From assembly GCA_902599805.1 (NCBI GenBank), contig CACKGP010000001.1:1-64000 (forward strand): a DNA stretch of 64,000 nt, in the 5' to 3' direction. The notes below the pieces were generated by a model. It saw nothing but the letters and a program-made list of their open reading frames with translations. It was not told the origin of the DNA and ran no database searches. Both the position numbers and the translations under genes were made by a program. Of the stretch, positions 9,333-30,359 are shown piece by piece (the first letter of the stretch is position 1; the number at the start of each line of letters is the position of its first letter). This DNA comes from an uncultured Pelagibacteraceae bacterium (GTDB lineage: Bacteria; Pseudomonadota; Alphaproteobacteria; Pelagibacterales; Pelagibacteraceae).

Positions 9333-9333
9333 C

Positions 9334-10131
9334 TTATTTAATATTTAAAACTGTCATTGGATCTAAACGGGTACCAAACCAATTAAGTCTCACATCAAGG
9401 TGGGCACCCGTTGATCTTCCTGTTGAGCCTACTGTTCCTATTACTTCTCCCTGTTTTACTTTCTGACCTTTTTTTACAAAAATTTTTTGCATGTGCATAT
9501 ATAGAGTTGAAATTCCATGACCATGGTCAAATATTAAAGTCCCACCAGTATAAAATAAATCTTTTTCCGCCATAGTTACTGTACCATCAAGCATTGCTTT
9601 TATTTGTGTTCCTTCTTTTGCAGCAAAGTCGATACCATAGTGTGGCCATTTTGGCTTACCATTTAAAATTCTTTGGCTACCGTATACGCCAGTAATAATC
9701 GCATTTTCTAAAGGGGGTTTAAATTTATTCTTAAAGAAAGTTAAATTGCTATTTACAGATCTTGCATCTGAAATAATTTTATTTTCTTTCTTAATTCTTT
9801 CATAAACCTCTTTTGGTGGTGTTACTTTTTTTTCAGGCAGGCCATCAATCCTCTGAATTTTATATTCACGCTTCTGAATTTTTTTTGTAATTCTATTTTT
9901 TTTTCCATTTTTAATAGAGGTGATGACAATATCGTATTTTCTATCTCTACCAATACCAAAAGCAAAAAATCCGTCTTTTGATACCTTAACCTTTTTTTTA
10001 TCAATCCAGATTTCAGTTTCAGGTTGAGTTTTACCAATAATAAAGTGCCCCTGTATAAATTTTCCATCAAAAATTAAAGCATTAAGTGTAGATGGAAAAA
10101 GAAAAGCAATTATGAGTATAATCCTAAACAT
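9334..10131 (-). CDS. exported M23 family peptidase (LytM-like)
   Basis: A 265-residue protein with a signal peptide (residues 1-18, ending LNA), an N-terminal beta-rich segment (20-85), a basic linker and a C-terminal M23 domain (about 140-262). Metal motifs: H164-x3-D168 (HYGID) and the catalytic-type His213 (YMHM). The usual HxH motif reads H244-L-D246, so the third zinc ligand is Asp rather than His. M23 enzymes cut peptidoglycan cross-bridges or act as amidase activators. The 'HLD-R-NWF..R-DP' ending is a recurring variant in marine proteobacteria as far as I recall, so activity may be kept. It ends 1 base from the convergent CADD-like gene. Confidence 0.87.
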   Translation of the reverse strand: MFRIILIIAFLFPSTLNALIFDGKFIQGHFIIGKTQPETEIWIDKKKVKVSKDGFFAFGIGRDRKYDIVITSIKNGKKNRITKKIQKREYKIQRIDGLPEKKVTPPKEVYERIKKENKIISDARSVNSNLTFFKNKFKPPLENAIITGVYGSQRILNGKPKWPHYGIDFAAKEGTQIKAMLDGTVTMAEKDLFYTGGTLIFDHGHGISTLYMHMQKIFVKKGQKVKQGEVIGTVGSTGRSTGAHLDVRLNWFGTRLDPMTVLNIK

Positions 10132-10182
10132 TGTTTTAATTTTAAACTTATTGTACTTTATCTACATTAAAAGGTAAATAAA

Positions 10183-11523: not shown

Positions 11524-11537
11524 TAATTCTACCTCTG

Positions 11538-11615
11538 ATGGTTTTTAGATTTTCTAACCCATTTTGAACATTTAAAAACCCGCTTAACGAAAATAAAATA
11601 TTCTTTAAAAACCAT
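11538..11615 (+). repeat. inverted repeat with two alternative right arms
   Basis: A left arm ATGGTTTTTA (11538-11547) is perfectly complementary to TAAAAACCAT at 11606-11615 and, over 8 bases (GGTTTTTA), also to TAAAAACC at 11573-11580. The element fills the gap between the aminotransferase and the small membrane protein gene. It could be a terminator region or an RNA switch, or chance in AT-rich DNA; no U-tract follows directly. Confidence 0.35.
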
Positions 11616-11634
11616 TTTTGTGATTGAATATGTA

Positions 11635-11850
11635 ATGAAAGAAATGGGAGATTCTTTACAAAAAGATTATGTAAATCAAGAGGCTCGTAATAGTGAAAAT
11701 TCATTAGGAAGCTCTGGGTCTAAAGTTGATTTAAATAACCTTATAAAAAGAGTTAAAGAAGAAGAAAAAAGGTCAAAAAGACAAAATATAGTTATCTCTG
11801 CAGCAGCCCTATCAGCTGTAGCAGTCTTTGGTATAATTTTAACACTTTAG
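11635..11850 (+). CDS. small membrane-anchored hypothetical protein
   Basis: A short gene for about 71 residues. The first 50 residues are hydrophilic and charged (ending in KRVKEEEKRSKRQN), followed by one hydrophobic segment at the extreme C-terminus (IVISAAALSAVAVFGIILTL), so it looks tail-anchored with the bulk in the cytoplasm. I did not recognise the family. Three in-frame starts are possible: GTG 11620, ATG 11635 and ATG 11644; 11635 was chosen as the first ATG, without a convincing ribosome site for any of them. It converges with the regulator gene, leaving 4 bases. The clear hydrophilic/TM division argues for a real gene. Confidence 0.6.
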   Translation: MKEMGDSLQKDYVNQEARNSENSLGSSGSKVDLNNLIKRVKEEEKRSKRQNIVISAAALSAVAVFGIILTL

Positions 11851-11854
11851 TCAA

Positions 11855-12823
11855 TTATCTTAATAAAGCACGATACACAATTGACGAGAACGCAGCAAAT
11901 TGACCAGCAGTACCTTGAACATTTGTCAAAGGATGACTTAAATAACCGTCATTATTATTTTCCTCATTTACTAAGTTATATCTTTTACTAAGTGGATCTT
12001 TTTTAACAAATTTAGCTTTTGATAACCATTCTAACTTTCTTATACATGTTGCGCGAGGTATGCCCGTTACTTCTGATACTGACGTGGCACTAATATCCGG
12101 ATATTTTTTTGACACATCTTGTTTTATATTATTTTGTTTAAAATAATTTAGTGATTGAATTAAACTTTGTAACCCAATTAAGAGTATCTCAAGATCATTT
12201 GTCTTTTTTTGCCAATATTTCATAAAATCTAGTTGGGTAGTTAAATAATGATACCAATAAAAGCAATAATTTTTCTCAATCTCTTTGTAAAATTTTGAAA
12301 AAGGCAAATCAATATTTAAAAGTTTAGATTGTTCAAATAAAAATTTTGATAATGATTTAATTTGTTCTTTTATAATTTGCATGTAAGTATCTTTTGCTTG
12401 AGATGACGGTTCCCAATAGAGGTTATTTTTATTAGATTTTTTTAAATGTCTTAGTTTAGTTAATTGTATAATTTTTCGTCTAGTAGTTTCTTTGGGTAAT
12501 CCGGTGAACCTTGAAACAGAAATTATTTTTAGTTTATCTTGTATTGTATTTTGGTGATTAAACCAGAATTTATCAAGTGAAAGATCAAAATCTAAGTCAT
12601 CTTCTCTTTTTCTCATAACTTTCAAATGAAGATTTCGTGCAAAGTATATAACAATTTGACCACCCTCTAAATCACCGTAACGTTTATATATTCCAGACAA
12701 AAAAGTACTTTGCATTTCGAAAAATGTAGGCAATATTTTAATTGAATTTTTTTCGAAATTTTCCTCAATGGCCTTGTGACTGATTTTTTTTTCTAATTCC
12801 ATAATTTTATTAGTAATTGCCAT
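11855..12823 (-). CDS. putative transcriptional regulator with two helix-turn-helix segments
   Basis: A 322-residue protein with two similar helix-turn-helix-like stretches: ISVSRFTGLPKETTRRKII around residue 105-122 and VSEVTGIPRATCIRKLEWL around 250-268. Both share the pattern 'S.-TG-P--T--RK', suggesting an internal duplication, each followed by a wing-like basic segment (HLKKSNKNNLYWE; FVKKDPLSKRYNL). The middle (about 140-230) is helical and aromatic-rich and may be a ligand or dimerisation domain. I do not recognise a named family. A perfect palindrome ends on the A of the start codon (12823-12849), fitting autoregulation or translational control. No Shine-Dalgarno is visible before the ATG; the Met at residue 8 is an alternative start. 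Confidence 0.7.
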   Translation of the reverse strand: MAITNKIMELEKKISHKAIEENFEKNSIKILPTFFEMQSTFLSGIYKRYGDLEGGQIVIYFARNLHLKVMRKREDDLDFDLSLDKFWFNHQNTIQDKLKIISVSRFTGLPKETTRRKIIQLTKLRHLKKSNKNNLYWEPSSQAKDTYMQIIKEQIKSLSKFLFEQSKLLNIDLPFSKFYKEIEKNYCFYWYHYLTTQLDFMKYWQKKTNDLEILLIGLQSLIQSLNYFKQNNIKQDVSKKYPDISATSVSEVTGIPRATCIRKLEWLSKAKFVKKDPLSKRYNLVNEENNNDGYLSHPLTNVQGTAGQFAAFSSIVYRALLR

Positions 12824-16326: not shown

Positions 16327-17844
16327 ATGTCAAATATTGATGCATTATTTATAACACCCCCCTCTAGACTTGATGTTTATCAAGGGTTAGCCAATGATTA
16401 TGCAGCCATTGAACCTCCTGTTTGGTCTTCATTGATTGCAAATTTTTTAATTAAAAAGGGATATTCATCAGAAATACTAGATGCTGAGGCTGAAAATTTG
16501 ACACACGAACAAACTGCTCAAAGAATTGCAAAAAAAAATCCTAAACTTGCAATATTTATGGTTTATGGCCAACAACCCTCGGCCTCAACTCAATGTATGC
16601 CAGGAGGAAAAAAAACTTGTATAAAATTAAATGAAATATCCTCGGGTGATATAAAAACTATTGTGATAGGCACCCATGCATCTGCCCTTCCAAAAAAAAC
16701 ATTAGAGGAAGAACCATACAATTATGTTTGTCAAGGCGAAGGACCTTTGACGGTTCTTGAACTTATTAATTTTTTAAAAGGAAAAAACAAGGATATTAAG
16801 AAAATACCAGGTCTATGGTATTTTGACAAAGATAAGAACGTTTGTTCAAATCCTTCCGCAAAAATGTTTGAGAATTTGGATCAAAATCTTCCAGGTCAGG
16901 CCTGGAAGTTATTAGACATGAAAAAGTATAAAGCACATAACTGGCACACATTTGGTAGATTAGATACAATAAATAGTTATGCTTCGTTACAAACGAGTCT
17001 TGGATGTCCTTTTAAATGTACTTTCTGTTGTATAAACGCTCCTTTCGAGAGAAACACAATCAGATTCTGGTCGCCCGAACATATTATTAAGCAGATAAAA
17101 ATCTTGGTTGAGGATTATAAAATTACTAATATAAAAATACCTGATGAAATGTTTGTATTAAATCCAAAACAAGTAACTGGTATATGCGATGAAATTATAA
17201 ATTCAGGATACGGAAAAATTTTGAATTTTTGGGCATACGCGAGAATAGACACTCTTAATGACGACGAGATGCTAAAAAAAATGCTTAAGGCCGGCATAAG
17301 ATGGTTAGCGCTAGGTATAGAGTCAAGTTCAAAGCATGTAAGAGATGGAGTTGTTAAAGGACGATTTAATAATTTTGATATTGAGGGTATTGTCAAAAAA
17401 GTGAGAGATATGGGTTTTTATGTTGGAGCGAATTATATTTTTGGTCTACCAGATGATAATCATGATTCTATGAAAGAAACATTAGACTTATCCATAAGGG
17501 TAAACAGCGAGTGGGCAAACTTTTATTCTGGGATGGCTTATCCAGGTTCACAATTATACCCCATGGCTAAAAATAAGAAATGGACACTTCCAGATGATGC
17601 TAATGGCCCTGGTTGGATTGGTTACTCTCAACATTCATATGAGACGCTACCTTTAAGAACAGAACATATAAAAGGTTCAGAAGTTCTGGAGTTTAGGGAC
17701 AAAGCTTTCGACGCCTATTTTAAAAACCAAGATTATCTTTCAATGGTTAAAAAAACTTTTGGTGAACAAACAGTTTCTCATATTGAAAAAATGTCCTCCC
17801 ACAAGCTTAAAAGAAAGCATAATTTTGAGAAAGTAAATTATTAG
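16327..17844 (+). CDS. B12-binding domain radical SAM protein
   Basis: A 505-residue protein. Residues 1-150 form a cobalamin-binding-like Rossmann domain (LFITPPSRLDVYQGLAN, then LAIFMVYGQQPSAS and IVIGTHASALPKKTLEEEP). The radical SAM core begins near residue 222 with LGCPFKCTFCC, a C-x3-C-x2-C cluster that binds the 4Fe-4S and SAM. KIPDEMFVLNPKQV, LALGIESSS and GANYIFGLPDDN are further core strands. Members of this class methylate or rearrange unactivated carbons, often in sugars or lipids; which substrate is used here is unknown. It heads a same-strand run of tightly spaced genes to 25.6 kb. Cobalamin would have to be taken up or be absent. Confidence 0.87.
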   Translation: MSNIDALFITPPSRLDVYQGLANDYAAIEPPVWSSLIANFLIKKGYSSEILDAEAENLTHEQTAQRIAKKNPKLAIFMVYGQQPSASTQCMPGGKKTCIKLNEISSGDIKTIVIGTHASALPKKTLEEEPYNYVCQGEGPLTVLELINFLKGKNKDIKKIPGLWYFDKDKNVCSNPSAKMFENLDQNLPGQAWKLLDMKKYKAHNWHTFGRLDTINSYASLQTSLGCPFKCTFCCINAPFERNTIRFWSPEHIIKQIKILVEDYKITNIKIPDEMFVLNPKQVTGICDEIINSGYGKILNFWAYARIDTLNDDEMLKKMLKAGIRWLALGIESSSKHVRDGVVKGRFNNFDIEGIVKKVRDMGFYVGANYIFGLPDDNHDSMKETLDLSIRVNSEWANFYSGMAYPGSQLYPMAKNKKWTLPDDANGPGWIGYSQHSYETLPLRTEHIKGSEVLEFRDKAFDAYFKNQDYLSMVKKTFGEQTVSHIEKMSSHKLKRKHNFEKVNY

Positions 17845-17894: not shown

Positions 17895-18428
17895 ATGTTT
17901 TCTTCCATCATTATAAGCGGTGCACTAGCTCAAGATCACGAGTTTATATATCCTTTTTATCGACTACTAGAGGAAAAAAGTAAACTCGATGTTTGTTTAA
18001 TTGGGGGCAAGCCTGTCCAAGGTATTTTGGGAACAACATTACCTCCAATAAAAGATTATCCAGTTAAAGACATTGGAGATATTAAGACTAATGATTATGA
18101 TCTTTTGGTATTACCAGGAGGAGTAAAAGCTTTGGAGAAAACTCGACAAAATAAAGAATTTATAAAATTTATTTCAGATTTTCATAAAGCTGGTAAAGTC
18201 ATCGCCTGCATTTGTAGCGGCGTTCAACTTTTAATTTCAGCAAAAATAGTTAAAGGAAAAAAAATTGCAGGTTATTATCATCTGGAAGATGATATTGTAA
18301 ATGCTGGAGCAATATATACAGATTTACCTGCTGTTGTTGATAGCAAGATCATTACAACAGCACATTATAAAGATATGGGTCCTTGGATGAAAGCTACATT
18401 AGATTTTTTTAATGAGAAAAAAAAGTAG
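17895..18428 (+). CDS. DJ-1/PfpI family protein
   Basis: A 177-residue flavodoxin-like protein. VCLIGGKPVQGILG, then LLVLPGGVKALEKTRQNKEF with the conserved Glu-like region, and the nucleophile elbow VIACICSGVQLLISAKIV with Cys (near residue 104), followed by GYYHLEDDIVNAGAIY in place of the usual 'H' partner. Family members are chaperones, glyoxalases or amidases; none can be picked from sequence. It lies in the island operon before a cupin gene that overlaps its end by 17 bases, so the product may act on the same sugar intermediates. A TATAAT at 17883-17888 lies too near the ATG to be its promoter unless the message is almost leaderless. Confidence 0.82.
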   Translation: MFSSIIISGALAQDHEFIYPFYRLLEEKSKLDVCLIGGKPVQGILGTTLPPIKDYPVKDIGDIKTNDYDLLVLPGGVKALEKTRQNKEFIKFISDFHKAGKVIACICSGVQLLISAKIVKGKKIAGYYHLEDDIVNAGAIYTDLPAVVDSKIITTAHYKDMGPWMKATLDFFNEKKK

Positions 18429-19107
18429 TTTTTATGATAATAAGGTTGTTATAAAACCTTGGGGTTACGAATACACCATATACAGACATCAAAATAAATT
18501 ATCAGTTACATTTTTAAAAATTAATAACAATCATAGGACCTCTTTACATTGTCATCCAAAAAAGAAAACAGGGTTTATAGTTATAGAAGGAAAAGCCAAA
18601 ATTCAATTGGGTTTGTATAAAGAAAATTCTGAATACTTTACAGCTCCATCAAAATTAATGATTAGAACGGGATTGTTTCACTCTATAAAAGGAGTATCAA
18701 AAAATGGTGTAAGCGCTCTTGAATTTGAAACACCTATGGATAAAAAAGATCTAGTTAGATTCAAAGATGATTATGGAAGAAGATCTAAACCATATGAAGG
18801 TAAAAATTTTTCGAAAAGTCTAAATGAAAATTTTATCAAATTTAAAAAACCTATTTTTGGAAAAGATCAAGCCTATAAAATTGGAAAAGTAAAAGTTTTT
18901 TTAGAAGTACATAAAAATTTTAAAAAACTTCTTAATAAAAGTAATAATACTATTTTTGCTATCCTTAATGGAAAAATAATTGATAAAAAAGGAAGAAATG
19001 TTATTTCATACGGAGATATTATTAAAACCGGTACCTTAAAAAAACTTTCTCAGGTTTTTAAAATTAAGGGAAGTCTAACAGTTTTGAGAGTTTCAAAATA
19101 CAAATAG
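18412..19107 (+). CDS. two-domain cupin protein (sugar isomerase/epimerase-like)
   Basis: A 231-residue protein with a first cupin barrel at residues 15-120: KPWGYEYTIY opening, SLHCHPKKKTGFIVIEGKAKIQLG with two metal-site His, and RTGLFHSIKG with a third. It resembles the C-terminal cupin of mannose-6-phosphate isomerase/GDP-mannose pyrophosphorylase. The second half (about 150-231) folds like a degenerate cupin (VFLEVHKNFKKLL, IFAILNGKIIDKKG, YGDIIKTGTLKKLS) without the metal His. It may isomerise or merely bind a sugar. The start overlaps the preceding gene by 17 bases and the next gene follows after 3. Confidence 0.75.
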   Translation: MRKKSSFYDNKVVIKPWGYEYTIYRHQNKLSVTFLKINNNHRTSLHCHPKKKTGFIVIEGKAKIQLGLYKENSEYFTAPSKLMIRTGLFHSIKGVSKNGVSALEFETPMDKKDLVRFKDDYGRRSKPYEGKNFSKSLNENFIKFKKPIFGKDQAYKIGKVKVFLEVHKNFKKLLNKSNNTIFAILNGKIIDKKGRNVISYGDIIKTGTLKKLSQVFKIKGSLTVLRVSKYK

Positions 19108-19110
19108 CAC

Positions 19111-19950
19111 ATGAATGAAAAATTTTTTAGATTAAAAACATTTGAAAAAGCTTCTTACTGCAGATATTTCGAGGAAGAAGTCATCAAAAATTTAAAAAAT
19201 AAAAATATTAAAATACCGACTTATGTTTCAGCCGGTCAAGAATTTATAGCTGCTTCTATAGCAACAATATGCGAGGATCTTAAAATAAAACCATGGATAT
19301 TTGGTCAACACAGATGTCATTCAATTTATATTTCTTTTGGTGGTGACAAAATTAAATTGATCGATGAATTATTGGGTAGAAAGACTGGTTGTACTCGAGG
19401 TATGGGTGGATCAGCATCAATTGCTAGTAAAGAAATAAAAATGTTTGGACATGATGGACTGATGGGATCTAATGGACCTATTGGTGTGGGAGCATGTTTC
19501 GCCACAAATCACCCAACTATAGTTTTTATGGGTGATGCTGCTGCAGAAGAAGATTATGTTTTAGGAGGCTTAGGATGGGCATCAACAAAAAATATACCTT
19601 TAATAACCGTTGTAGAAGATAATAATTTGTCAATTTTAACTGAAAAAAAAGTAAGAAGGAATTGGGAGATGTCAGATGTAGCAAAATCATTCAAAATGGA
19701 AGGTTATAATTTAAATGACGATCCAATTGATTTATTAAAACACTCAGAAACATTCTTTAAAAAACCATGTTTATTAAACGTAAATACAAATCGTATATAT
19801 TGGCATGCTGGTTCAGGTATGGATGGTGACAAAACTTTTGACAGATACCAAGAACAGAAAAAAAAACTTGGAGAAGAAGCAATTGAAATAGACAAAAGAG
19901 TAAAAAATGAAATTGAAATTTTATGGAAACAACAGTTAGAGAAACAATAA
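19111..19950 (+). CDS. thiamine-diphosphate enzyme, alpha/PP-domain subunit (first pair)
   Basis: A 279-residue protein like the E1-alpha subunit of 2-oxo acid dehydrogenases or the N-terminal half of transketolase. The ThDP diphosphate motif is FMGDAAAEEDYVLGG (near residue 143) closing at VVEDNNLSIL (near 172). Earlier features are YVSAGQEFIAASIA, FGQHRCHSIYISFGG, GCTRGMGGSASI and GSNGPIGVGA, which fit the binding domain. No E2 lipoyl or E3 gene is nearby, which argues against an oxidative dehydrogenase complex. It overlaps its beta partner by 28 bases. Likely chemistry is a carboligation or two-carbon transfer in sugar synthesis (inference from context). Confidence 0.85.
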   Translation: MNEKFFRLKTFEKASYCRYFEEEVIKNLKNKNIKIPTYVSAGQEFIAASIATICEDLKIKPWIFGQHRCHSIYISFGGDKIKLIDELLGRKTGCTRGMGGSASIASKEIKMFGHDGLMGSNGPIGVGACFATNHPTIVFMGDAAAEEDYVLGGLGWASTKNIPLITVVEDNNLSILTEKKVRRNWEMSDVAKSFKMEGYNLNDDPIDLLKHSETFFKKPCLLNVNTNRIYWHAGSGMDGDKTFDRYQEQKKKLGEEAIEIDKRVKNEIEILWKQQLEKQ

Positions 19951-20837
19951 AAAATACAACAAAAAAACACTTAAAAGAAAATAACGGCCTTTTATTTGGC
20001 CAATGTCTTTCTGCAGTTGGTTGGGTCGGGGGGACTGTACCTGAGTTAACAGAAAAAGATGGGTTAGTTGAACTTTCAATGGCTGACGTTGCTAATGGCG
20101 GGATAGTAGCTGGTGCTGGATTATCTAAAAGAAGACCAATATATGTTATTAGATACCAAGGATTTAATTGGTTTAATGCATCAATAATTTTAAATTATGC
20201 TTGTAAGTCAAAAGAGATTTGGGATGTACCATGTCCGATTTTTATTAGAGGAATTGCGATGGAAGGTTCTATAGGTCCAGTAGCTGGATCATCACAACAT
20301 TCAATTTACTTCAAAATGCCAGGTATAAAAATTATTTCACCTATGACACCAAAAGAATATTTAATTGCTTACAATGATTTTATGAAAAATGATGATGTTA
20401 TGTATGTATCGGAACACCGTGGAAGCTATGGTAATTCAGAAGAGTTAAATGACTCTATCGCGGACGATCTAGATCTTGTATTATTTCCAATATCGATTAC
20501 CAGATTTGAAGCTCAAAAAGCAAAAAAACAACTTGAAAAAGAGGGTTATAAAATTGGTATAGCAAATATTCTATGGATTAAACCATTCCATATTAAAAAA
20601 GAGTGGGAGAAAGCTGTAATTAAAAGTAAATTTGGCGGTATAGTTCTTGATGACGATTTCACTCAAGGTGTTGCTTCAAATCTAGCTTACGAGTTGATGA
20701 AAAAAACAAAAAAAAATTTTGAAGTAATGGGACTTAAAAATAAGTCTGCAGGCTTTTCAAAAGATACTGATAATTTACCACCATCTTACAAAGACATAAT
20801 TTCAAAATGTAAAGAAATTATTAAAAAAAAGAAATGA
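19923..20837 (+). CDS. thiamine-diphosphate enzyme, beta/PYR-domain subunit (first pair)
   Basis: A 304-residue E1-beta or transketolase C-half-like protein. The PYR domain covers residues 1-175: LVELSMADVANGGIVAGAGL lies where the family has the catalytic glutamate ('-AE-'), but here the acid is Asp. PVAGSSQHSIYFKMPGIKI and SPMTPKEYLIAYNDFM are typical of the family, and a transketolase C-terminal domain follows (about 185-300; KIGIANILWIKPF, GGIVLDDDFTQGVASNLAYELM). It starts inside the alpha gene and ends with a 4-base overlap on the next alpha-type gene. The Glu-to-Asp change may alter or weaken cofactor activation. Confidence 0.83.
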   Translation: METTVRETIKNTTKKHLKENNGLLFGQCLSAVGWVGGTVPELTEKDGLVELSMADVANGGIVAGAGLSKRRPIYVIRYQGFNWFNASIILNYACKSKEIWDVPCPIFIRGIAMEGSIGPVAGSSQHSIYFKMPGIKIISPMTPKEYLIAYNDFMKNDDVMYVSEHRGSYGNSEELNDSIADDLDLVLFPISITRFEAQKAKKQLEKEGYKIGIANILWIKPFHIKKEWEKAVIKSKFGGIVLDDDFTQGVASNLAYELMKKTKKNFEVMGLKNKSAGFSKDTDNLPPSYKDIISKCKEIIKKKK

Positions 20838-21442
20838 TAATGAATAAAAAAGATTTGATTGATTTTGAAGAAGAAATTGCAGATTTATTCAATAAAGGAA
20901 AAATACGTGCTCCTGTTCATCTTTATCAAGGAAATGAAGATAAAATTATTGATTTTTTTAAAAGAGTAAAAACAAACGATTGGATTTTCTGTAGTTGGAG
21001 GTCCCATTATCAATGTTTGTTAAAAGGTGTTCCAAAAAATGAAGTTAAGAAAGAAATCTTAGCTGGAAGATCAATATCGCTATGTTTTCCTGAGCAAAAA
21101 ATTTATTCATCAGCGCTAGTTGGTGGCTCGGTTCCGATAGCTGTTGGAACAGCCTTGTCTCTAAAGCTAAGAAATGAAAAAAATACAATGGTATATTGTT
21201 TTATGGGCGAAATGACCTCGGAGACTGGAATAGTTCACGAGTGTATTAAATATAGTAGAAATCTTAATTTACCTATCCATTTTATAATAGAAGATAATGA
21301 AATGTCGGTTTGTACAAATACAAGAAATACTTGGAAACAAAATAAACTTAGCTACGAGGGAAAAAATGATAAGTTTGTTACATTTTACAGTTATAAATCT
21401 AAATGGCCACATGCCGGGGCAGGAAAAAGGATACAGTTTTAG
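20834..21442 (+). CDS. short thiamine-diphosphate enzyme, alpha/PP-domain subunit (second pair)
   Basis: A 202-residue relative of the preceding alpha subunit, reduced to little more than the PP domain. WIFCSWRSHYQCLLKGVP corresponds to the 'FGQHRCHS' region of the first copy, and ALVGGSVPIAVGTALSL is the domain entry. The ThDP motif reads CFMGEMTSETG with Glu in place of the canonical Asp of GDG, ending at IIEDNEMSVC. KWPHAGAGKRIQF closes the protein. It is shorter than E1-alpha (about 320) but similar to two-subunit decarboxylases such as ComD/E. It may be a divergent active copy; the changed metal-binding acid is notable. Start could be the second ATG at 20840. Confidence 0.75.
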   Translation: MIMNKKDLIDFEEEIADLFNKGKIRAPVHLYQGNEDKIIDFFKRVKTNDWIFCSWRSHYQCLLKGVPKNEVKKEILAGRSISLCFPEQKIYSSALVGGSVPIAVGTALSLKLRNEKNTMVYCFMGEMTSETGIVHECIKYSRNLNLPIHFIIEDNEMSVCTNTRNTWKQNKLSYEGKNDKFVTFYSYKSKWPHAGAGKRIQF

Positions 21443-21445
21443 TCT

Positions 21446-21982
21446 ATGAAATATGCAGATGAACTTATAAAAGCAATGGATTTTTTAGCACAAAATCCTC
21501 AAACAATTTTTCTTGGACAAGCTGTTGAATACCCCGGTACGGTAATGTCCACTACACTAAAAAACATATCAAAAGAAAAATTATTAGAAATTCCAGTTGC
21601 TGAAGAGATGCAGCTAGGAATTACAAATGGATTAGCTTTAAATAATTTTATTCCTGTAAGTATTTTTCCAAGATGGAATTTTTTATTGTTAGCAGCAAAT
21701 CAACTAATTAATCATTTAGACAAATTGAGTGTAATGTCACAAGGAAAATTCAAAACAAAAGTTATAGTCAGAACATCAATAGGGTCCCAACGACCACTGC
21801 ACCCTCAACATCAGCATATCGGAGATTTTACAGAAGCATTTAAAAAAGTATTAACTTCAACAGAGATAATAAGACTAGAAGAACCAAAAGATATATTTCC
21901 AGCTTATGAAAAAGCTTTAAAAAGAGAAGATGGTAAAAGTACAATTTTAGTTGAATACGGAGATTACTATAACGAGAAATGA
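21446..21982 (+). CDS. short thiamine-diphosphate enzyme, beta/PYR-domain subunit (second pair)
   Basis: A 178-residue PYR-type domain. LLEIPVAEEMQLGITNGLAL keeps the catalytic glutamate that the larger beta copy upstream has replaced with Asp. VSIFPRWNFLLLAANQLINHL and KVIVRTSIGSQRPLHPQHQHIGDFTEAFKKVL follow, and the transketolase C-terminal domain is absent; the protein ends with TILVEYGDYYNEK. So the second alpha/beta pair forms a minimal ThDP enzyme. The gene starts 3 bases after its alpha partner. The reciprocal active-site changes in the two pairs leave open that subunits mix. Confidence 0.75.
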   Translation: MKYADELIKAMDFLAQNPQTIFLGQAVEYPGTVMSTTLKNISKEKLLEIPVAEEMQLGITNGLALNNFIPVSIFPRWNFLLLAANQLINHLDKLSVMSQGKFKTKVIVRTSIGSQRPLHPQHQHIGDFTEAFKKVLTSTEIIRLEEPKDIFPAYEKALKREDGKSTILVEYGDYYNEK

Positions 21983-21986
21983 TATT

Positions 21987-22988
21987 ATGATTATAACAAA
22001 AACTCCATATAGAATTTCTTTTTTTGGTGGAGGTAGTGATTATCCAGCTTGGTATAAAAAGAATGGCGGAGCGGTTTTGTCTACAACTATCGATAAATAT
22101 ATTTATATAACTTGTAGATTTTCACCTGATTATTTTAAACAAAAATATAGAATAGTTTGGAGAAAAATTGAAAATGTAAAAAATCTTAGAGAAATTAATC
22201 ATAAAGCTGTAAGAGAATTACTTAAATATTTAAAAATAAAACAAGGACTCGAAATACATTATCATGGTGACTTACCGGCAAGGAGTGGTATGGGATCGTC
22301 TTCATGTTTTACAGTTGGTTTAATGCAAGCTTTAAGCCAAATTAAAAATATAAAACTAAATAAATCAAAATTAGCTAAACAAAGTATATATTTTGAGCAA
22401 AACATAATGAGAGAAATTGTAGGTTCCCAAGATCAAACCTCTGCTTCTTATGGAGGATTTAATAAAATTTTATTTAACAAAGATAATTCTATTAAGATTA
22501 AAAAAATCTCTTCAAAAAAAAATATAAAAAAATTAAATGATAATCTTGTACTCATATATACAGGAATAAATAGAACGGCACATAAAATAGCAAATCAGTA
22601 TGTAAAAAAACTAACAAATGAGAAAAAAGACCATATAAACAGAATTTTAGAGTATGTGAATGAGGGTGAAAAAATTTTAAATAATGGTGATATAGATGAT
22701 TTTGGCAGTTTATTACATGATGCATGGGTTGAAAAAAAAGCATTAAGTAATTTAATAACAAATTCAAAAATAAACTCAATTTACGATAAAGCTAGGAGCC
22801 ATGGAGCACTTGGTGGAAAACTTTTAGGTGCAGGAGGCGGAGGTTTTTTGCTAATGTATATGAAAAAAAAAGATAGATCAGATTTTTTAAAAAAAAATAA
22901 AAAATTAGTTACAATACCTTTTAATTTTACATCTTTAGGTAGTCAAATTATACTAAATCAGTTATCGAAAGTTAAATATGAAAATTAA
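21987..22988 (+). CDS. hddA: GHMP kinase, heptose 7-phosphate kinase-like
   Basis: A GHMP-family sugar kinase of about 333 residues. MIITKTPYRISFFGGGSDYPAWY is the usual opening of D-glycero-alpha-D-manno-heptose 7-phosphate kinase (HddA) and its relatives, so I start at 21987 rather than at the earlier in-frame ATG 21951, which lies inside the preceding gene. The ATP motif is DLPARSGMGSSSCFTVGL (near residue 100) and the C-terminal glycine motif is LLGAGGGGFLLMY (near 290). A nucleotidyltransferase-GmhB fusion at 25582 would supply the other steps to GDP-heptose; a GmhA isomerase is not in this window. Other members phosphorylate fucose or other sugars. Overlaps the next gene by 11 bases. 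Confidence 0.82.
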   Translation: MIITKTPYRISFFGGGSDYPAWYKKNGGAVLSTTIDKYIYITCRFSPDYFKQKYRIVWRKIENVKNLREINHKAVRELLKYLKIKQGLEIHYHGDLPARSGMGSSSCFTVGLMQALSQIKNIKLNKSKLAKQSIYFEQNIMREIVGSQDQTSASYGGFNKILFNKDNSIKIKKISSKKNIKKLNDNLVLIYTGINRTAHKIANQYVKKLTNEKKDHINRILEYVNEGEKILNNGDIDDFGSLLHDAWVEKKALSNLITNSKINSIYDKARSHGALGGKLLGAGGGGFLLMYMKKKDRSDFLKKNKKLVTIPFNFTSLGSQIILNQLSKVKYEN

Positions 22989-24162
22989 TCACCCCTTAAT
23001 GCACAATAATTTTTTAAAATCGGATATGAGTGCAGTAAGAAAATTAATCAAAAATAAAGATTTAATACTTACTCAATCAAAAAAAGTTTCCGAATTCGAG
23101 CAAAAATGGTCAAAATGGCTTGGTGTTAAGTATAGTGTGTTTGTAAACTCTGGGTCTTCAGCGAACTTTTTGTCTATGTTGATTTTAAAGAGCATGTCCT
23201 TGAAAAAAAAAGAAGTTATAGTTCCAACTTTAACTTGGGTTTCGGATATAAATTCTGTTTTAATGAGTGGTTTTAAACCCATATTTGTTGACATTGACCC
23301 AAAAAATTTAGCTATGAGTGAGGATCAAATTTTGAGAAAAATTAACAAAAATACCCTTGCTGTATTCTTAACTCATGTTCAAGGTTTTAATGGATTATCA
23401 GAAAAAATTCTAAAAAAATTGAAATCAAAAAATATTTTTTTAATAGAGGATGTCTGTGAGTCACACGGCGCAACATTTAAAGGAAAAAAGTTAGGCACTT
23501 TCGGATTGATATCAAATTTTTCGTTTTATTACGCTCATCACATGTCTACTATTGAAGGAGGAATGATATGTACTAACAGCAAAGATATATATGAAAGAGC
23601 CAGAATCTTTAGATCTCATGGTATGGCAAGAGAAGTAAAAAACTCAAAATTTCAAAATAAAATGATTAAAAAATATCCAAAATTATCTCCACAATTTATA
23701 TTCTTATATCCAACTTTTAATTTTAGAAATAATGAAATTGGTGCTGTGATAGGATTAAATCAAATTAAAAGACTTAATAAAAATAATGCATCAAGAACAA
23801 AAAATCTCAAACTTTTTTTGAAACTAATCGACTCTAAAAAGTACAGGACGGATTATGATATCAAAGGAAGTTCAAATTATGCATTTCCAGTAATTTTTAA
23901 AAATAGAAATTTTAAATTTAGGGAATTATTTGAGAATACTTTAAAAAAATATAATATTGAATTTAGAAGAGGTAATGCAGGAGGAGGAAATCAACTTAGA
24001 CAACCTTATCTTAAACCATTTCTAAAAAATATAAATTTAAAAAAATTCCCCGAAGTTGACCATGTACATTTTTTTGGTTATTATATTGGAAATTACCCAA
24101 CTTTGAAAACTTCAAAAATCAAAAAAATTTGTTCAATATTAAATAATATAAGTCTTAAATAA
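22978..24162 (+). CDS. DegT-family PLP/PMP sugar 3-dehydratase (ColD/E1-like, His in place of Lys)
   Basis: A 394-residue DegT-fold protein. FVNSGSSANFLSMLIL (PLP phosphate), PTLTWVSDINSVLMSG and IEDVCESHGATFKGKKLG are normal, but the segment that carries the PLP lysine reads NFSFYYAHHMSTIEGGMICT: His187 sits at the lysine position. This is the hallmark of PMP-dependent 3-dehydratases such as ColD (GDP-4-keto-6-deoxymannose) and E1/RfbH (CDP-4-keto-6-deoxyglucose), which remove the C3 hydroxyl to make 3,6-dideoxy sugars. The extra cysteines of the iron-sulfur E1 enzyme are not evident, so ColD-like chemistry is more likely. FRNNEIGAVIGLNQIKRL and RRGNAGGGN are also typical. Confidence 0.85.
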   Translation: MKINHPLMHNNFLKSDMSAVRKLIKNKDLILTQSKKVSEFEQKWSKWLGVKYSVFVNSGSSANFLSMLILKSMSLKKKEVIVPTLTWVSDINSVLMSGFKPIFVDIDPKNLAMSEDQILRKINKNTLAVFLTHVQGFNGLSEKILKKLKSKNIFLIEDVCESHGATFKGKKLGTFGLISNFSFYYAHHMSTIEGGMICTNSKDIYERARIFRSHGMAREVKNSKFQNKMIKKYPKLSPQFIFLYPTFNFRNNEIGAVIGLNQIKRLNKNNASRTKNLKLFLKLIDSKKYRTDYDIKGSSNYAFPVIFKNRNFKFRELFENTLKKYNIEFRRGNAGGGNQLRQPYLKPFLKNINLKKFPEVDHVHFFGYYIGNYPTLKTSKIKKICSILNNISLK

Positions 24163-24167: not shown

Positions 24168-24656
24168 ATGGTAAAATTAAAAGTAATTAAAAATTCAACG
24201 TTTAAAGATAATAGAGGGTTTTATTGGACTACATGGAAAAAAGGAACACTTAAAAATTTTAAATTTAATCATGATAAATTTTCCATATCAAAAAAAAAAG
24301 TTCTAAGAGGATTTCATTGTGATTTTAAGTCATGGAAACTAGTAACATGTACGTTTGGTAAAGTTTTTTTAGTTGTATTAAATGTGAAAAAAAATTCAAA
24401 AAATTATTTAAAACACAAAACTTGGATTTTAACACATGAAAAACCTACGTTAATTCTTATTCCACCTCATTTTGCTAATGCATATTTATGTTTATCTAAC
24501 AAATGCGTTTTTCATTATAAATGGTCTTATAAAGGAAAATATGTAGACACAAATAAACAAAAAAGTTACAGATGGAATGATCCAAAATTAAAAATAAAAT
24601 GGCCAATAAAAAAACCGATTTTAAGTAAAAGGGATAGAACTTCAAAATATTTGTAA
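24168..24656 (+). CDS. dTDP-4-dehydrorhamnose 3,5-epimerase-like cupin (RmlC family)
   Basis: A 162-residue RmlC-type protein. FKDNRGFYWTTWKKG corresponds to the opening 'D-RG-F-E-W', KKVLRGFHCDFKSWKLVTCTFGKVFLVVL to 'LRGLHYQ---KLV-V--G-V-DVAVD' with the catalytic His present, and LILIPPHFANAYLCLS to 'IP-GFAHGF--L'. The final His of the last motif is Asn here (FANAY), and the Tyr/Asp pair is harder to align, so it may be a 3- or 5-epimerase only, or act on another keto sugar. It lies between the 3-dehydratase (5 bases away) and the epimerase (1 base away), consistent with one deoxysugar pathway. Confidence 0.82.
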   Translation: MVKLKVIKNSTFKDNRGFYWTTWKKGTLKNFKFNHDKFSISKKKVLRGFHCDFKSWKLVTCTFGKVFLVVLNVKKNSKNYLKHKTWILTHEKPTLILIPPHFANAYLCLSNKCVFHYKWSYKGKYVDTNKQKSYRWNDPKLKIKWPIKKPILSKRDRTSKYL

Positions 24657-24657
24657 A

Positions 24658-25595
24658 ATGAGTAAAATTTTAATTACTGGTGGGGGAGGCTATGTTGGAT
24701 CAATGTTATGTACAGCACTTGTAAATTTAGGCCACGATGTGACAGTTTTAGACTTGATGAAATACGATAAAGGATCATTAAATCATCTTTATTATTTCAA
24801 AAATTTTAAATTAATAAAAAAAGATGTTCGAGATAAAAAATTATTAAAATCTTTACTAAAAAAAAATGAATTTATTATACCTTTAGCTGCATTAGTAGGC
24901 GCTCCACTGTGTGATAAATACAAGAGAGATGCTGTATCAGTAAATCACCATTCAATTAAAAATCTTGTATCATTGAGTTCAAAAAAAAATAAAATAATAT
25001 TTTTAACTACTAATTCAGGATATGGAGTTGGAGAAAAAAATAAGTTTTGTGACGAAAACAGTCCTTTGAACCCAATATCACTTTACGGCAGGACAAAATG
25101 TGATGCAGAGGAAGAGGTAAAAAAAAATCTAAAAATTTTATTTGCTTTAGATTAGCAACAGTTTTTGGATACAGTTATAGAATGAGAACAGATTTATTAG
25201 TAAATAACTTTGTTTATAAATCAGTAAAAACAAAAAAACTAACAATTTTCGAACCTCATTTTAGAAGAAATTTTATACATATTAAGGATGTAGTTTTGGG
25301 AATAATATTCGCGATAAAAAATTTTAATAAATTAAAATCAAATATTTATAATTTAGGACTATCATCTGCAAATATAAGCAAACTTATGTTAGCAAAAAAA
25401 ATTAAGAAAAAAATGAATAAACTTAAAATTAAACTTATAACAAATAGAAAAGACCCGGATAAAAGAGATTATTTTGTGAGTAATAAAAAAATTGAAAAAA
25501 AAGGGTTCAAGGCAAAAACTTCTCTGGATCAAGGGATAGACGAATTAATTACCTTATTTAATGTAGATAACAAAAAAGTAATTAATAATTATTAA
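24658..25595 (+). pseudogene. NAD-dependent epimerase/dehydratase, split by a frameshift at a run of nine A
   Basis: Two adjacent frames encode the halves of one short-chain epimerase of about 312 residues. The first half (24658-25155) has ILITGGGGYVGSMLC, NSGYGVG and the catalytic SLYGRTKCDAEEEV (Y-x3-K). The second (to 25595) starts with FRLATVFGYSYRMRTDLLVN and RRNFIHIKDVV, the normal continuation. The frames meet in AAAAAAAAA at about 25119-25127, where one base is missing; a tenth A would read through as VKKKSKNFICFRLATVFGY. It may be an assembly error, an inactivated gene, or a gene rescued by polymerase slippage or -1 ribosomal shifting on the A run. The last 14 bases overlap the convergent gene. 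Confidence 0.82.
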
Positions 25596-26778
25596 ATTTT
25601 TTATTTATTTGTTTTACCTGACTTAAAAAATCTTTTTTTGAATATTCAAAATATAATTTACTACTTTTAGCACAGATTTTGTCAGTCACCTGATCACCAA
25701 TCATAAAACTTTCATTTAATTTTACACTCCATTTATTTCTAATTTGCTTTATCATTAAATTACCAGGTTTTCTTAATTGACTTTTTTTTCTATACTTTTT
25801 TATTTTTGCTTCTGGGTGATAAGGGCAAAAATTTATATCATCAAAAAAAATATCTTTTTTCTGTAATTTTTGTTTGATATAATTTTGTAAGTTAAAAAAT
25901 TGTTTTTCTGTATAAATTCCTTTTCCTATTCCTGCCTGATTAGTAACTACAAAAATATAGTAGTCATTATTTCTGAGAAATTTAAGACCTTTGATAACAT
26001 TTGGCCTAAACTTAAAATCTTTTATTTTATGAACATATCCTTTGTCGAAATTAATAACACCATCTCTATCTAAAAATGCAGCGCGTTTTATAAATTTTTT
26101 AGATATTATTTTTTTTGCTTTTTTAAAATTTTCTGGAGTCCCTATATCTAAAAAGAAATTCTTTGTTTTTATTCCTGAAATTTTCTTATTTTTAATTAAA
26201 TTCGGCAGTATATCATTTTCCAAAGACGTATTTTTATTTTTTATTAATTTAAAAATTTTTTTTTTGAAAAAATATATACCCCCATTCATAAGGTTGCTTT
26301 TATCTTGATAAATAATCTTGTTTTCTCTTAAGGCTAAAGTTGATAATTTTTTATTAGATTTGTAAAAATCATTTTTTACTAAAGTAATAGACCCATAACT
26401 ATTTTTACTGCATGATTTAATTAATTGATTTAAATTTATATCAAGGAAGGTATCCCCATTAATTAATATAAAATCATTAACATTCTTTTTTTTTAAAACA
26501 CTTAAAGCCCCAGCAGTACCCATTGGTCTTAATTCTTTCAAACACTTTATATGATTAAAATTATAGTATTTATTATTAAATTTTTTATAAATTATATCGG
26601 ACTTATACCCTGTGAGAATAAATATATTTTTAAAGTAATACTTACTATAGTTTTGTATAATATATTCTAGAAATGGTTTTTTATTAAAAATGGCCATAGG
26701 TTTAGGTCTGTTTCTTAATAAAGATTTGATTCTAGATCCCTTACCTCCAGCTAAAACTACTAAATCTAAAGAGTGCAT
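25582..26778 (-). CDS. fusion of sugar-1-phosphate nucleotidyltransferase and D,D-heptose bisphosphate phosphatase (HddC-GmhB type)
   Basis: A 398-residue two-domain protein. Residues 1-225 are a nucleotidyltransferase: DLVVLAGGKGSRIKSLLRNRPKPM (quoted in part; LAGGKGSR is the nucleotide loop), FILINGDTFLDIN with the metal Asp, and NGGIYFFKK. Residues 230-395 are a HAD phosphatase: AAFLDRDGVINFDKGYVH with the nucleophile DxD, VVTNQAGIGKGIYTE, CPYHPEA and KPGNLMIKQI, all as in GmhB, and FMIGDQVTDK. With the HddA-like kinase this gives phosphatase and guanylyltransferase steps to GDP-D-glycero-D-manno-heptose. Convergent to the operon before it. Confidence 0.87.
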   Translation of the reverse strand: MHSLDLVVLAGGKGSRIKSLLRNRPKPMAIFNKKPFLEYIIQNYSKYYFKNIFILTGYKSDIIYKKFNNKYYNFNHIKCLKELRPMGTAGALSVLKKKNVNDFILINGDTFLDINLNQLIKSCSKNSYGSITLVKNDFYKSNKKLSTLALRENKIIYQDKSNLMNGGIYFFKKKIFKLIKNKNTSLENDILPNLIKNKKISGIKTKNFFLDIGTPENFKKAKKIISKKFIKRAAFLDRDGVINFDKGYVHKIKDFKFRPNVIKGLKFLRNNDYYIFVVTNQAGIGKGIYTEKQFFNLQNYIKQKLQKKDIFFDDINFCPYHPEAKIKKYRKKSQLRKPGNLMIKQIRNKWSVKLNESFMIGDQVTDKICAKSSKLYFEYSKKDFLSQVKQINKKFNNY

Positions 26779-27786: not shown

Positions 27787-29331
27787 TTAATTAATTTTAT
27801 AAATAGAGAATTCTTTGTTCTGTAAAAAAATGTTTAATTGTATATCCCAATTTGTTGGAGTCACCACATAGTCCGCATTATATTTTTCACTTAAAAATTT
27901 CCAATCTTCTTCTTTCTTTTTCTCAAAACTTATTTTAGTAAAATTATCTGGTATAGTTGGATTATTTTTTATGGGGGGTTTTTTTAAATCTACATCATAA
28001 ACTTCTTGTAATATCTCAAACACATCATTCACCAAGTATGGATGGTAAGGTATAAAATCAAGAGATGCAGTATCTATAAGTACAGGCTTCAAACCCAGTC
28101 TTATTGTATACGCTTGTGTGCCCGTTGTAGTAATAAAATATCCAGGTAAATTTAAGTTTGAAATTTCATAAAAAATATCAGCATTTTTATATTTATTTTT
28201 TACCGAAAAATTTGAAACAAACTCATTTTTAATTTTAATAAAGTTTTTATAATGTTGAGCTGAATAAATAATCAATATACCGAATATAAAAACCCTAATG
28301 AATTTTTTTGTTTCATTAAACCCGGAAAAAATCTGGTAAATCATTGAAATTATTAGAGGCCATCCTACAAAGGAATGTAATATTAAAAATCTCGAAGGCA
28401 TTGCCCTTACAAATAACTCTGGGAAAAAGCTTGGAAAAAATTTAAATAATAAATATATAACTGATGCAAATACTATCATTAGATTAAAAAATAATAGAAA
28501 ATTATTTTTTTTGTTTTTATTAAAATAATAATAGACATTAACCAAAATAAAGAGAATCATTGATTTAATGAGATATTCATAATGAATTATACCTGCAGCA
28601 TTTCTATGACCATCCCAGAATTCTAAGTAAATATTTAAATTTTCAGTTTCAAACCCAACTTTACTAATTTTATTTTGAAAGAAAATTATGAAGCTTAACA
28701 AAGTACAACTAGCTCCAAAAAAACTACCTTTTAAGAATTTTATTAAGATATTTCTATTTTTTAATAATATTAATGAGAGTGTTAAAATAAATAAAACCCA
28801 CAAACCTACAACTGGGTGTATACAAATTAAAAAAGTTGAAAAAAAACCTAAAAGTTTAAAATTTTCATTAATTAATAATGAAAAAATTAGCGATGTAATT
28901 GCTAAGCTTAACATACCATAGCTATGGTTTGAAATGATCAATGAAGGATAATCAGTGTCTCCAAAATTTTTTTGTAAAATAAGCATTAATATACTTACAA
29001 GAAGAGCCAAATATTTATTAAAGGTTAGTTTATTTACAATTAAAAATGAGCTTATTCCGAAACATAAAGTAGAAAAAAAAAGAATTGCTCTTGAGCTATT
29101 ATCTATAGATAATCCAGAATTTAATAAAATTTCAGCAAACTGATGTAACAATGTCCAACTATTATGATAGTAATATTTCATCGGAGATAAAGGTTCGGGA
29201 TATTTAATTATCTCAGATATTGTCAAACCGCCATTTATTGCTACCTGATATAAAGAATGTGAGAAACTTAAAAAAACACAAGTTAAAATAATTATTAAAT
29301 ATACTATCTTATTATCTTTTTCTGATATCAA
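27787..29331 (-). CDS. polytopic membrane protein, possibly a GT-C glycosyltransferase
   Basis: A 514-residue protein with about ten hydrophobic segments up to residue 370 and a hydrophilic C-terminal domain (about 385-514). The first periplasmic loop (about residues 30-75) holds charged and aromatic residues but no clear family motif; 'DTDYPSLIISNHSYGM' lies near 125. The layout (many helices plus a soluble C-terminus) is that of GT-C glycosyltransferases or surface-polymer ligases. I do not recognise the family. The convergent polyprenyl-phosphate glycosyltransferase 3 bases away makes lipid-linked sugar transfer a reasonable idea. Overlaps the rmlB-like gene by 4 bases. Confidence 0.6.
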   Translation of the reverse strand: MISEKDNKIVYLIIILTCVFLSFSHSLYQVAINGGLTISEIIKYPEPLSPMKYYYHNSWTLLHQFAEILLNSGLSIDNSSRAILFFSTLCFGISSFLIVNKLTFNKYLALLVSILMLILQKNFGDTDYPSLIISNHSYGMLSLAITSLIFSLLINENFKLLGFFSTFLICIHPVVGLWVLFILTLSLILLKNRNILIKFLKGSFFGASCTLLSFIIFFQNKISKVGFETENLNIYLEFWDGHRNAAGIIHYEYLIKSMILFILVNVYYYFNKNKKNNFLLFFNLMIVFASVIYLLFKFFPSFFPELFVRAMPSRFLILHSFVGWPLIISMIYQIFSGFNETKKFIRVFIFGILIIYSAQHYKNFIKIKNEFVSNFSVKNKYKNADIFYEISNLNLPGYFITTTGTQAYTIRLGLKPVLIDTASLDFIPYHPYLVNDVFEILQEVYDVDLKKPPIKNNPTIPDNFTKISFEKKKEEDWKFLSEKYNADYVVTPTNWDIQLNIFLQNKEFSIYKIN

Positions 29332-30359
29332 ATTTTTAGTCCAAACCTTTTATTTATATTTTTTTTTGAAATTTGTTCAAAAAACTTTCTGTTATTCACA
29401 TACCACCTTAAAGTTTTATTTAACCCAACTGAAAGTGATATTTTTGGTTTCCAGTTTAGTTCTTTTCTAATTTTATTTGAATTTACCGCATATCTTTTGT
29501 CATGACCTGGTCTATCTTTTACATATTTAATCTTTAATTTATTTGAAAATTTAACTTTATTTTTTTTTGCAATACTTAAAATATTTTTAATTATTTCAAT
29601 ATTTTTTATTCTTTTTCCAGTGCCAATATTATAATTTTTTCCTATTTTACCTTTTAAAAAAATTTTAAGTAAAGCTTCGCAGTTATCTTTTACATAAATC
29701 CACTCTCTAACATTTGTACCCTTTCCATAAAGGGGTATAGATTTATTCTTTAATATATTATAAATAATTTTTGGAATAAATTTTTCTGGTAATTGTCTTG
29801 GGCCATAATTATTACATGCATTTGCTATTACTATTTTAGATGAATAGGTTCTGAAGTATGCTTTCAATAATTGATCAGCAGCAGCTTTAGATGCAGAATA
29901 GGGAGAGCTTGGATTATAATTATAATCTTCTTTAACTTGTTTATGTTTTGGAATATCACCATAAACTTCGTCAGTTGAAACATGAATAAGTTTAATGACT
30001 TTTTTATTTTTTTTATTAAAAGATCTTAGAGTTTCTAAAATATTAAAAACACCCATTATATTAGTTTTTAAAAATGCGTATGGGCTATCTATCGATCTAT
30101 CTACATGCGTTTCAGCTGCAAGATTGAAAATACCATCAGGTTTGAATTTTTTAATAATTTTTAAGAGTTTGGTTTTATTGTTTATATCTAATTTATAAAA
30201 AATATATTTTTTATTTTTTTTAAAATCTTTAACATTATAGGGATTTGCTGAGTAACTCGATTTATCAATATTTATAACGAAGTAGTTCTTTTCTAATAAA
30301 AACTCTACCAAATTACTACCAATAAAACCTTGACCACCTGTTACTATGATTTTCTTCAT
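29328..30359 (-). CDS. rmlB: dTDP-glucose 4,6-dehydratase
   Basis: A 343-residue extended SDR. KIIVTGGQGFIGSNLVEFLL binds NAD, NLAAETHVDRSIDSPYAF and HVSTDEVYGDIPKH are RmlB signatures, the catalytic pair is in SPYSASKAAADQLLKAY (Y-x3-K), and NNYGPRQLPEKFIPKII, YGKGTNVREWIYVKDNCEA and YNIGTG complete the pattern; RPGHDKRYAVN is the usual C-terminal motif. It converts dTDP-glucose to the 4-keto-6-deoxy sugar that the RmlC-like epimerase or DegT enzymes of the island can use. rmlA and rmlD are not found here. CDP- or GDP-sugar dehydratases are less likely given these motifs. Confidence 0.93.
   Translation of the reverse strand: MKKIIVTGGQGFIGSNLVEFLLEKNYFVINIDKSSYSANPYNVKDFKKNKKYIFYKLDINNKTKLLKIIKKFKPDGIFNLAAETHVDRSIDSPYAFLKTNIMGVFNILETLRSFNKKNKKVIKLIHVSTDEVYGDIPKHKQVKEDYNYNPSSPYSASKAAADQLLKAYFRTYSSKIVIANACNNYGPRQLPEKFIPKIIYNILKNKSIPLYGKGTNVREWIYVKDNCEALLKIFLKGKIGKNYNIGTGKRIKNIEIIKNILSIAKKNKVKFSNKLKIKYVKDRPGHDKRYAVNSNKIRKELNWKPKISLSVGLNKTLRWYVNNRKFFEQISKKNINKRFGLKI

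Follow-up and report, generated by a model that had tools for sequence, protein, structure and literature searches.

The 64,000-nucleotide stretch of DNA analysed here (the window; contig CACKGP010000001.1 of an uncultured bacterium of the Pelagibacteraceae) carries, at positions 22978 to 24162 of its plus strand, a gene that very probably encodes a pyridoxamine 5'-phosphate (PMP)-dependent sugar C3-dehydratase. The substrate of this enzyme is probably a heptose linked to guanosine diphosphate (GDP), and its likely product is GDP-3-deoxy-4-keto-heptose. On balance, the evidence leans towards a GDP-4-keto-heptose C3-dehydratase that acts within a pathway to a C-branched 3-deoxyheptose. Substrates, reactions and the branching step are deduced from the sequences, the structural model and the neighbouring genes. 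The gene and its diagnostic codon lie as follows.

22978..24162, plus strand: predicted PMP-dependent sugar C3-dehydratase, 394 amino acids, in a clade sister to ColD (His187 in place of Lys; tree; ColD top match in sequence and structure)
23536..23538, plus strand: codon of His187, at the position of ColD His188 (alignment with ColD)

The encoded 394-residue DegT-fold protein contains ...SNFSFYYAHHMSTIEGG..., in which residue 187 is the first histidine of the HH pair; its motif region reads FSFYYAHHMSTIEGG. The open reading frame (ORF) of an aminotransferase at 13834 reads FSFQAIKHITTGDGG, with lysine in the His187 column. By phmmer, His187 is aligned on His188 of ColD, the GDP-4-keto-6-deoxymannose 3-dehydratase of E. 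coli O55, where the wild type (PDB 2gms) reads YSHH and the H188N mutant (3b8x) YSNH. Homologues were collected via similarity to the window protein, and scans of GTDB genomes and IMG/VR provided 160 further loci, 80 of them from IMG/VR. In the resulting 161-member family, drawn from bacteria and IMG/VR contigs, the HH pair is kept in 159 of 159 readable members, whereas all 16 Lys-type rows have K in the His187 column, so that conservation of His187 is far beyond chance. His187, His188, Asp158, Ser182, Asn248, Trp87 and Glu161 are invariant in a 60-member alignment. No column of the family alignment holds lysine at 90% or more, and thus there is no alternative conserved Schiff-base lysine. 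The four-cysteine [2Fe-2S] set of RfbH is absent, its columns being occupied in the family by other residues or gaps, save for the shared Cys160. Position 186 is alanine in the window family, as in RfbH, and serine in the ColD clade.

A maximum-likelihood tree of 64 rows was calculated with ColD, RfbH/E1 and DegT aminotransferases, its Shimodaira-Hasegawa-like approximate likelihood ratio test (SH-aLRT) supports being those of a quick search without bootstraps. All histidine enzymes split from the 12 lysine enzymes (SH-aLRT 99). On the histidine side RfbH (100) diverges first, followed by two ColD-like rows; the window family forms a clade of its own (28 rows, 99), not inside the ColD clade and sister to it (93). 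Both the His-for-Lys exchange and this placement assign the protein to the ColD/E1 superclade. The AlphaFold2 model of the dehydratase (pLDDT 95.5) has ColD as its closest structure (Foldseek 1.1e-34; VIA-align Z 49.1, root-mean-square deviation 2.3 over 378 residues), and ColD is also the top sequence match, at about 30% identity. RfbH/E1 comes next in VIA-align (Z 46.9) and aminotransferases begin at Z 46.5; dehydratase and aminotransferase are not separable by fold alone, and it is the residues and the tree that separate them.

An earlier, sequence-only reading of this DNA had placed a histidine at the position of the lysine that binds pyridoxal 5'-phosphate (PLP), opposite the lysine of the ORF at 13834, and had proposed a PMP-type 3-dehydratase instead of an aminotransferase. 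ORF reading and ColD alignment confirm the first point, and tree, residues and fold the second. That reading had named ColD and E1 as the dehydratases marked by this exchange; RfbH/E1-type iron-sulfur chemistry, with a [2Fe-2S] cluster and an E3 reductase, was rejected for the window enzyme on account of the missing cysteines. Since these cysteines are missing and the family forms its own clade beside ColD, the window enzyme is, as judged from its sequence, ColD-like in chemistry, yet no member of ColD. The two share the fold, the histidine at the lysine position, the Asp/Ser/Asn/Trp/Glu active-site columns and the lack of iron-sulfur cysteines, and they differ in overall sequence, in clade, at position 186 and in gene company, ColD acting on a 6-deoxyhexose and the window enzyme probably on a heptose.

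Gene company was compared across loci dereplicated at 90% identity, of which 104 remained, 54 of them with 7 kb or more on either side (full flanks). Neighbours were counted by tblastn within 8 kb of the dehydratase; counts based on ORFs missed the genes for thiamine diphosphate (ThDP) enzymes in GC-rich loci. Among the 54 full-flank loci, an HddA-like kinase was found in 49, a ThDP enzyme in 46 and a C4-dehydrogenase in 44, all three together in 41; further neighbours were a radical S-adenosylmethionine (SAM) protein (42), an HddC-like protein (30), a GmhB-like protein (20), GmhA (14) and a GFS-like reductase (12). The same search in 20 control DegT loci, which were regions round strong PF01041 matches from the same phylum (the lysine aminotransferase of the window gave too few as a query), found the kinase and the C4-dehydrogenase in none and a ThDP gene in one. 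The association of ThDP enzymes with the dehydratase, which the earlier reading had drawn from the window, holds across these loci (Fisher p = 3e-9, for loci that are not independent). Kinase and ThDP genes were also near two of eight ColD-type loci, both belonging to a subclade with 44-51% identity to ColD (L226 and L227), and neither was present at four loci 62-72% identical to ColD. The company of L226 and L227 suggests that the place of the window's clade can be taken by ColD-type enzymes.

The sugar genes that adjoin the dehydratase in the window are these.

21951..22988, plus strand: HddA-like kinase (NCBIfam HddA 136 bits, cut-off 600; PDB heptose kinases)
24168..24656, plus strand: cupin epimerase, closest to GDP-4-keto-heptose C3- and C3,5-epimerases (PDB matches)
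24658..25595, plus strand: short-chain dehydrogenase/reductase (SDR) homologous to 6vo6, frameshifted in a poly-A run near 25121 (match of the L010 homologue)
25582..26778, minus strand: fused HddC-like heptose-1-phosphate nucleotidyltransferase and GmhB-like HAD phosphatase (NCBIfam GmhB 136 bits, HddC 103 bits)

By best match, the window thus holds HddA-like, HddC-like and GmhB-like members of a GDP-heptose supply set, with scores under the equivalog cut-offs. The kinase, whose best PDB matches are the heptose kinases 3k85 and 4n3o (with the L010 homologue as query), lies near the dehydratase in 83 of the 104 loci. The fusion at 25582 matches GmhB at 2e-29 and HddC (6jq8/5xhw) at 4e-22 in PDB, and a GmhA-like isomerase is present in the related operon L050. 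The cupin had been read as RmlC-like; it matches GDP-4-keto-heptose epimerases (8dcl, 8dak, 8dco, 8db5, 7an*) at about 1e-38 and the RmlC entries for sugars linked to deoxythymidine diphosphate (dTDP) only at about 1e-16 to 1e-20, so the former are its nearer relatives. Epimerase and SDR genes are thus real neighbours, as had been claimed, with the reservation that the SDR ORF (24658-25155) is only the first half of a 311-residue gene broken by two extra bases in the poly-A run relative to L008; the gene is intact in the relatives L008, L010, L011 and L012. The intact homologue of 311 residues (L010:11681-12613) matches PDB 6vo6 at 2e-87 with 47% identity, and such an SDR occurs in 76 of 104 loci at a median identity of 52%. 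Entry 6vo6 is, as we take it, Cj1427 of Campylobacter, a GDP-manno-heptose C4-dehydrogenase. Like 6vo6, the window-type SDR lacks the Asp/Glu of 4,6-dehydratases (TTNSGYG). This match displaced GalE-like HMM matches that had made the protein a candidate epimerase or branch reductase. A separate row of genes was observed elsewhere in the genomes of SAR11 relatives (L217:2369-5942 and L219:3871-7443); it encodes a GmhA-like SIS protein, a cytidine diphosphate (CDP)-glucose 4,6-dehydratase and what are likely to be a methyltransferase and a glucose-1-phosphate cytidylyltransferase.

The C4 oxidation of GDP-manno-heptose by Cj1427 requires 2-oxoglutarate, which becomes L-2-hydroxyglutarate; mixed in vitro with the C3-dehydratase of serotype HS:5, the enzyme gives GDP-3-deoxy-4-keto-heptose (PMC10680097). 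In the cassette studied here, the genes for C4-dehydrogenase and C3-dehydratase are natural neighbours. At L043, L045 and L050 an L-2-hydroxyglutarate oxidase homologue directly follows the C4-dehydrogenase, that of L050 exceeding its NCBIfam cut-off (338.5 versus 299). If the Cj1427-like SDR makes the 4-ketone, no 4,6-dehydratase, RmlB or 6-deoxygenation is needed.

Two pairs of ThDP genes lie upstream of the kinase.

20834..21442, plus strand: ThDP alpha chain, short E1 type, 202 amino acids (Pfam E1_dh)
21446..21982, plus strand: ThDP beta chain, short E1 type, 178 amino acids, no Transketolase_C domain (Pfam Transket_pyr only; VAEEM)
19111..19950, plus strand: ThDP alpha chain of a second E1-type pair, 279 amino acids (Pfam E1_dh; TIGR03182 100 bits)
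19923..20837, plus strand: ThDP beta chain of the second pair, 304 amino acids, Asp at the position of the catalytic Glu (Transket_pyr and Transketolase_C)

The short beta chain keeps the catalytic glutamate (VAEEM) and matches pyruvate dehydrogenase E1 beta in PDB; with the ThDP motif GEM...EDN and with VAEEM, the pair 20834/21446 has the E1 alpha/beta features of alpha-KADH2 branching enzymes. Its alpha chain is 60-70% identical to dehydratase partners in other phyla, and the pair as a whole (20834-21982) is conserved at this level across phyla, more than the dehydratase itself. In the second pair, the aspartate that replaces the catalytic glutamate (MADVA[GN]GG) is conserved throughout its cluster, in SAR11 and phages. 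Four kinds of ThDP enzyme occupy the same neighbourhood, namely the short E1 pair, the second E1 pair, a long or fused E1 (L042, 678 amino acids) and a split transketolase. In the 46 full-flank loci with a ThDP enzyme, 31 are of E1 type and 15 of transketolase type, never both, and an acetohydroxyacid synthase (AHAS)-like type appears merely as an extra. On a dehydratase tree of 85 loci the type changes about 33 times by parsimony, and well-supported branches alone force at least 10 changes for the short and transketolase types. This exchange at a fixed place suggests one step served by different donors. Transfer of acetyl from pyruvate onto keto sugars is a known reaction of E1-type (alpha-KADH2) enzymes, and hydroxyacetyl transfer has been proposed for split transketolases (PMC12247030; PMC4425429). 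Addition of a C2 branch at C4 by the ThDP enzyme is the best reading of these patterns, one to which we give an even chance.

In the pathway proposed from these comparisons, the Cj1427-like SDR (24658) would oxidise C4 and pass the hydride to 2-oxoglutarate. The C3-dehydratase (22978) would then form a ketimine between PMP and the C4 ketone and expel the C3 hydroxyl, with His187 as the base in lysine's stead; PLP and an enamine would be released, and the enamine would hydrolyse to the 3-deoxy-4-ketose and ammonia. PMP would be restored from glutamate with formation of 2-oxoglutarate, the oxidant of the C4-dehydrogenase step, and this regeneration could couple the two neighbouring steps one to one. 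The cupin (24168) would set C5 and the ThDP alpha/beta enzyme would add a C2 unit at C4, either acetyl from pyruvate (E1) or hydroxyacetyl from a ketose (transketolase). The end product would be a C-branched 3-deoxyheptose for a surface polysaccharide.

Parts of this scheme have precedents. The pathway of C. jejuni HS:5/HS:11 shares the C3-dehydration of a GDP-4-keto-heptose, the supply set and a heptose epimerase (PMC10440746). Its C3-dehydratases, unlike the window clade, group with ColD at 62-67% identity, and its substrate is a 6-deoxy-4-keto-heptose from a 4,6-dehydratase, whereas the window's 4-ketone is likely to come from the Cj1427-type dehydrogenase. Homologues of the C4-dehydrogenase and GDP-4-keto-heptose epimerase of the HS:2 pathway (Cj1427/Cj1430/Cj1428) adjoin the window gene, but the published HS:2 pathway has neither a C3-dehydratase nor a ThDP step. 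GDP-3-deoxy-heptoses were obtained only on mixing enzymes of different serotypes (PMC10680097). The comparison with yersiniose synthesis made in the earlier reading stands as an analogy, since in yersiniose A formation C3-deoxygenation likewise precedes ThDP-dependent C4 branching. It fails for the enzyme class: YerE is a single-chain, decarboxylase-type (AHAS-like) ThDP flavoenzyme that acts on a CDP-3,6-dideoxyhexose from an iron-sulfur E1/E3 pair. The window contains no such single-chain protein, its ThDP enzymes being of the E1 alpha/beta type. A few SAR11 relatives have a gene for an AHAS-like protein of the YerE class upstream of their cassette, for example at L010:2902-4602. The same two ThDP classes are found in alpha-KADH2 enzymes (AviB1/AviB2, Pau11/Pau12, KbDH) and in the split transketolases of miharamycin and amipurimycin, whose C2 donors, pyruvate or a ketose, are those proposed for the window. 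These enzymes are known from antibiotics of actinobacteria and not in the company of a His-type 3-dehydratase with GDP-heptose genes, and the short pair of the window, unlike alpha-KADH2 branching enzymes, lacks the C-terminal domain.

Three other explanations have to be weighed. A DegT aminotransferase that aminates the sugar via another lysine or a free-PMP mechanism would have the same fold, and PHROGs names the protein an aminotransferase. Mutation can shift ColD toward transamination, and a PDB entry of ColD H188K S187N is among the structure matches. Such an activity is nevertheless very improbable for a protein that falls in the histidine clade with ColD and RfbH, away from the lysine enzymes, and whose family has no lysine column at 90% to serve instead. 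The second alternative is close to what the sequence-only reading had expected: the ThDP enzyme would branch a yersiniose-like 3,6-dideoxyhexose whose precursor is either of RmlB type (dTDP-4-keto-6-deoxyglucose) or linked to CDP. The island does contain RmlB (29328-30359; its 403 bits exceed the cut-off), the sole 4,6-dehydratase-like SDR found in the window's genome; the search there revealed no 4,6-dehydratase for GDP-mannose or CDP-glucose. The relatives G001 and G004 carry a CDP-glucose 4,6-dehydratase elsewhere. RmlB is, however, no consistent neighbour across loci and was rejected as a required partner, and no separate RmlA candidate was evident among nucleotidyltransferase matches in four genomes, all incomplete. 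With the C4 ketone accounted for by the Cj1427-like SDR, and SDR, cupin, kinase and nucleotidyltransferase forming a GDP-heptose set, a 3,6-dideoxy sugar fed by RmlB is not borne out and is held to be improbable.

A more serious competitor is a GDP-3-deoxy- or 3,6-dideoxy-heptose that stays unbranched, like that of Campylobacter HS:5, with the ThDP enzymes serving elsewhere, for instance in sedoheptulose 7-phosphate supply or for another residue. Known sets of C4 oxidation or 4,6-dehydration, C3-dehydratase, epimerase and C4-reductase do yield such heptoses (PMC10440746; PMC10680097), and a transketolase could supply sedoheptulose 7-phosphate. E1 types would not make this compound, yet they and transketolases replace each other at the same place, and of the 80 loci having a ThDP gene, 72 have it on the strand of the dehydratase and no more than 2.5 kb away. 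GFS-like reductases were not seen in most loci, and the unbranched product is considered rather unlikely. Several observations count against the branched GDP-heptose pathway. In 22 of 104 loci the dehydratase has a GFS-like C4-reductase nearby, which would use up the 4-ketone without branching, and no ThDP gene was seen in 8 of the 54 full-flank loci. PDB names 6vo6, here taken to be Cj1427, only a 'putative sugar-nucleotide epimerase/dehydratase', and the HddA and HddC scores fall well below the NCBIfam equivalog cut-offs. The search for GmhA in the window's genome (assembly of 906 kb, 76% complete) gave none, and a Gmd-like gene near the Nodosilinea locus makes a 6-deoxy substrate possible there. 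The C4-dehydrogenase gene is frameshifted, which points either to an assembly error or to a strain that may be unable to produce the sugar.

Three further genes of the window accompany the cassette in other loci.

16327..17844, plus strand: B12-binding radical SAM protein, a frequent companion of the dehydratase (profile match; near it in 76 of 104 loci)
17895..18428, plus strand: DJ-1/PfpI-like protein, accessory in some loci (profile matches)
18412..19107, plus strand: cupin, similar to the C-terminal part of mannose-6-phosphate isomerase, accessory in some loci (profile matches)

The window belongs to SAR11, and its nearest relatives are single cells and metagenome-assembled genomes of Pelagibacteraceae. 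Homologues occur in SAR11, SAR116, Betaproteobacteria, Pseudomonas, Methylobacter, Nitrospira, Nitrospinaceae, cyanobacteria, Verrucomicrobia and Chloroflexi. On the T4-like phage contig L117 a whole cassette of cupin, radical SAM, DJ-1, E1 pair, kinase, dehydratase and C4-dehydrogenase genes (4581-12101) sits between genes for a T4-like major head protein, tail tube and helicase and SbcCD-like genes. Plasmid records gave no match to the dehydratase, and named phage records just 36% matches (Synechococcus phages ACG-2014f), which are not of the same subfamily. No published description of the cassette was found in a literature search that left most subscription journals outside.

Taken together, the data hint, at somewhat short of an even chance, at a class of GDP-linked C-branched 3-deoxyheptoses that is widespread and as yet undescribed. 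GDP-heptose supply, Cj1427-type C4-dehydrogenase and the new PMP C3-dehydratase clade would form its constant acceptor module, the branch would be set by whichever of four exchangeable ThDP modules is joined to it, and the carriers would be SAR11, many other bacteria and T4-like phages. If this is true, GDP-3-deoxy-heptoses, which the literature surveyed holds only as in vitro Campylobacter mixes, would be natural sugars of marine bacteria that are partly among the most abundant, and of their phages, and two-chain ThDP sugar branching would extend from antibiotic clusters to surface polysaccharides. The ThDP pairs would also be a source of biocatalysts that form C-C bonds, and the exchangeable branch-setting enzymes would offer a testable way to vary phage-receptor glycans.
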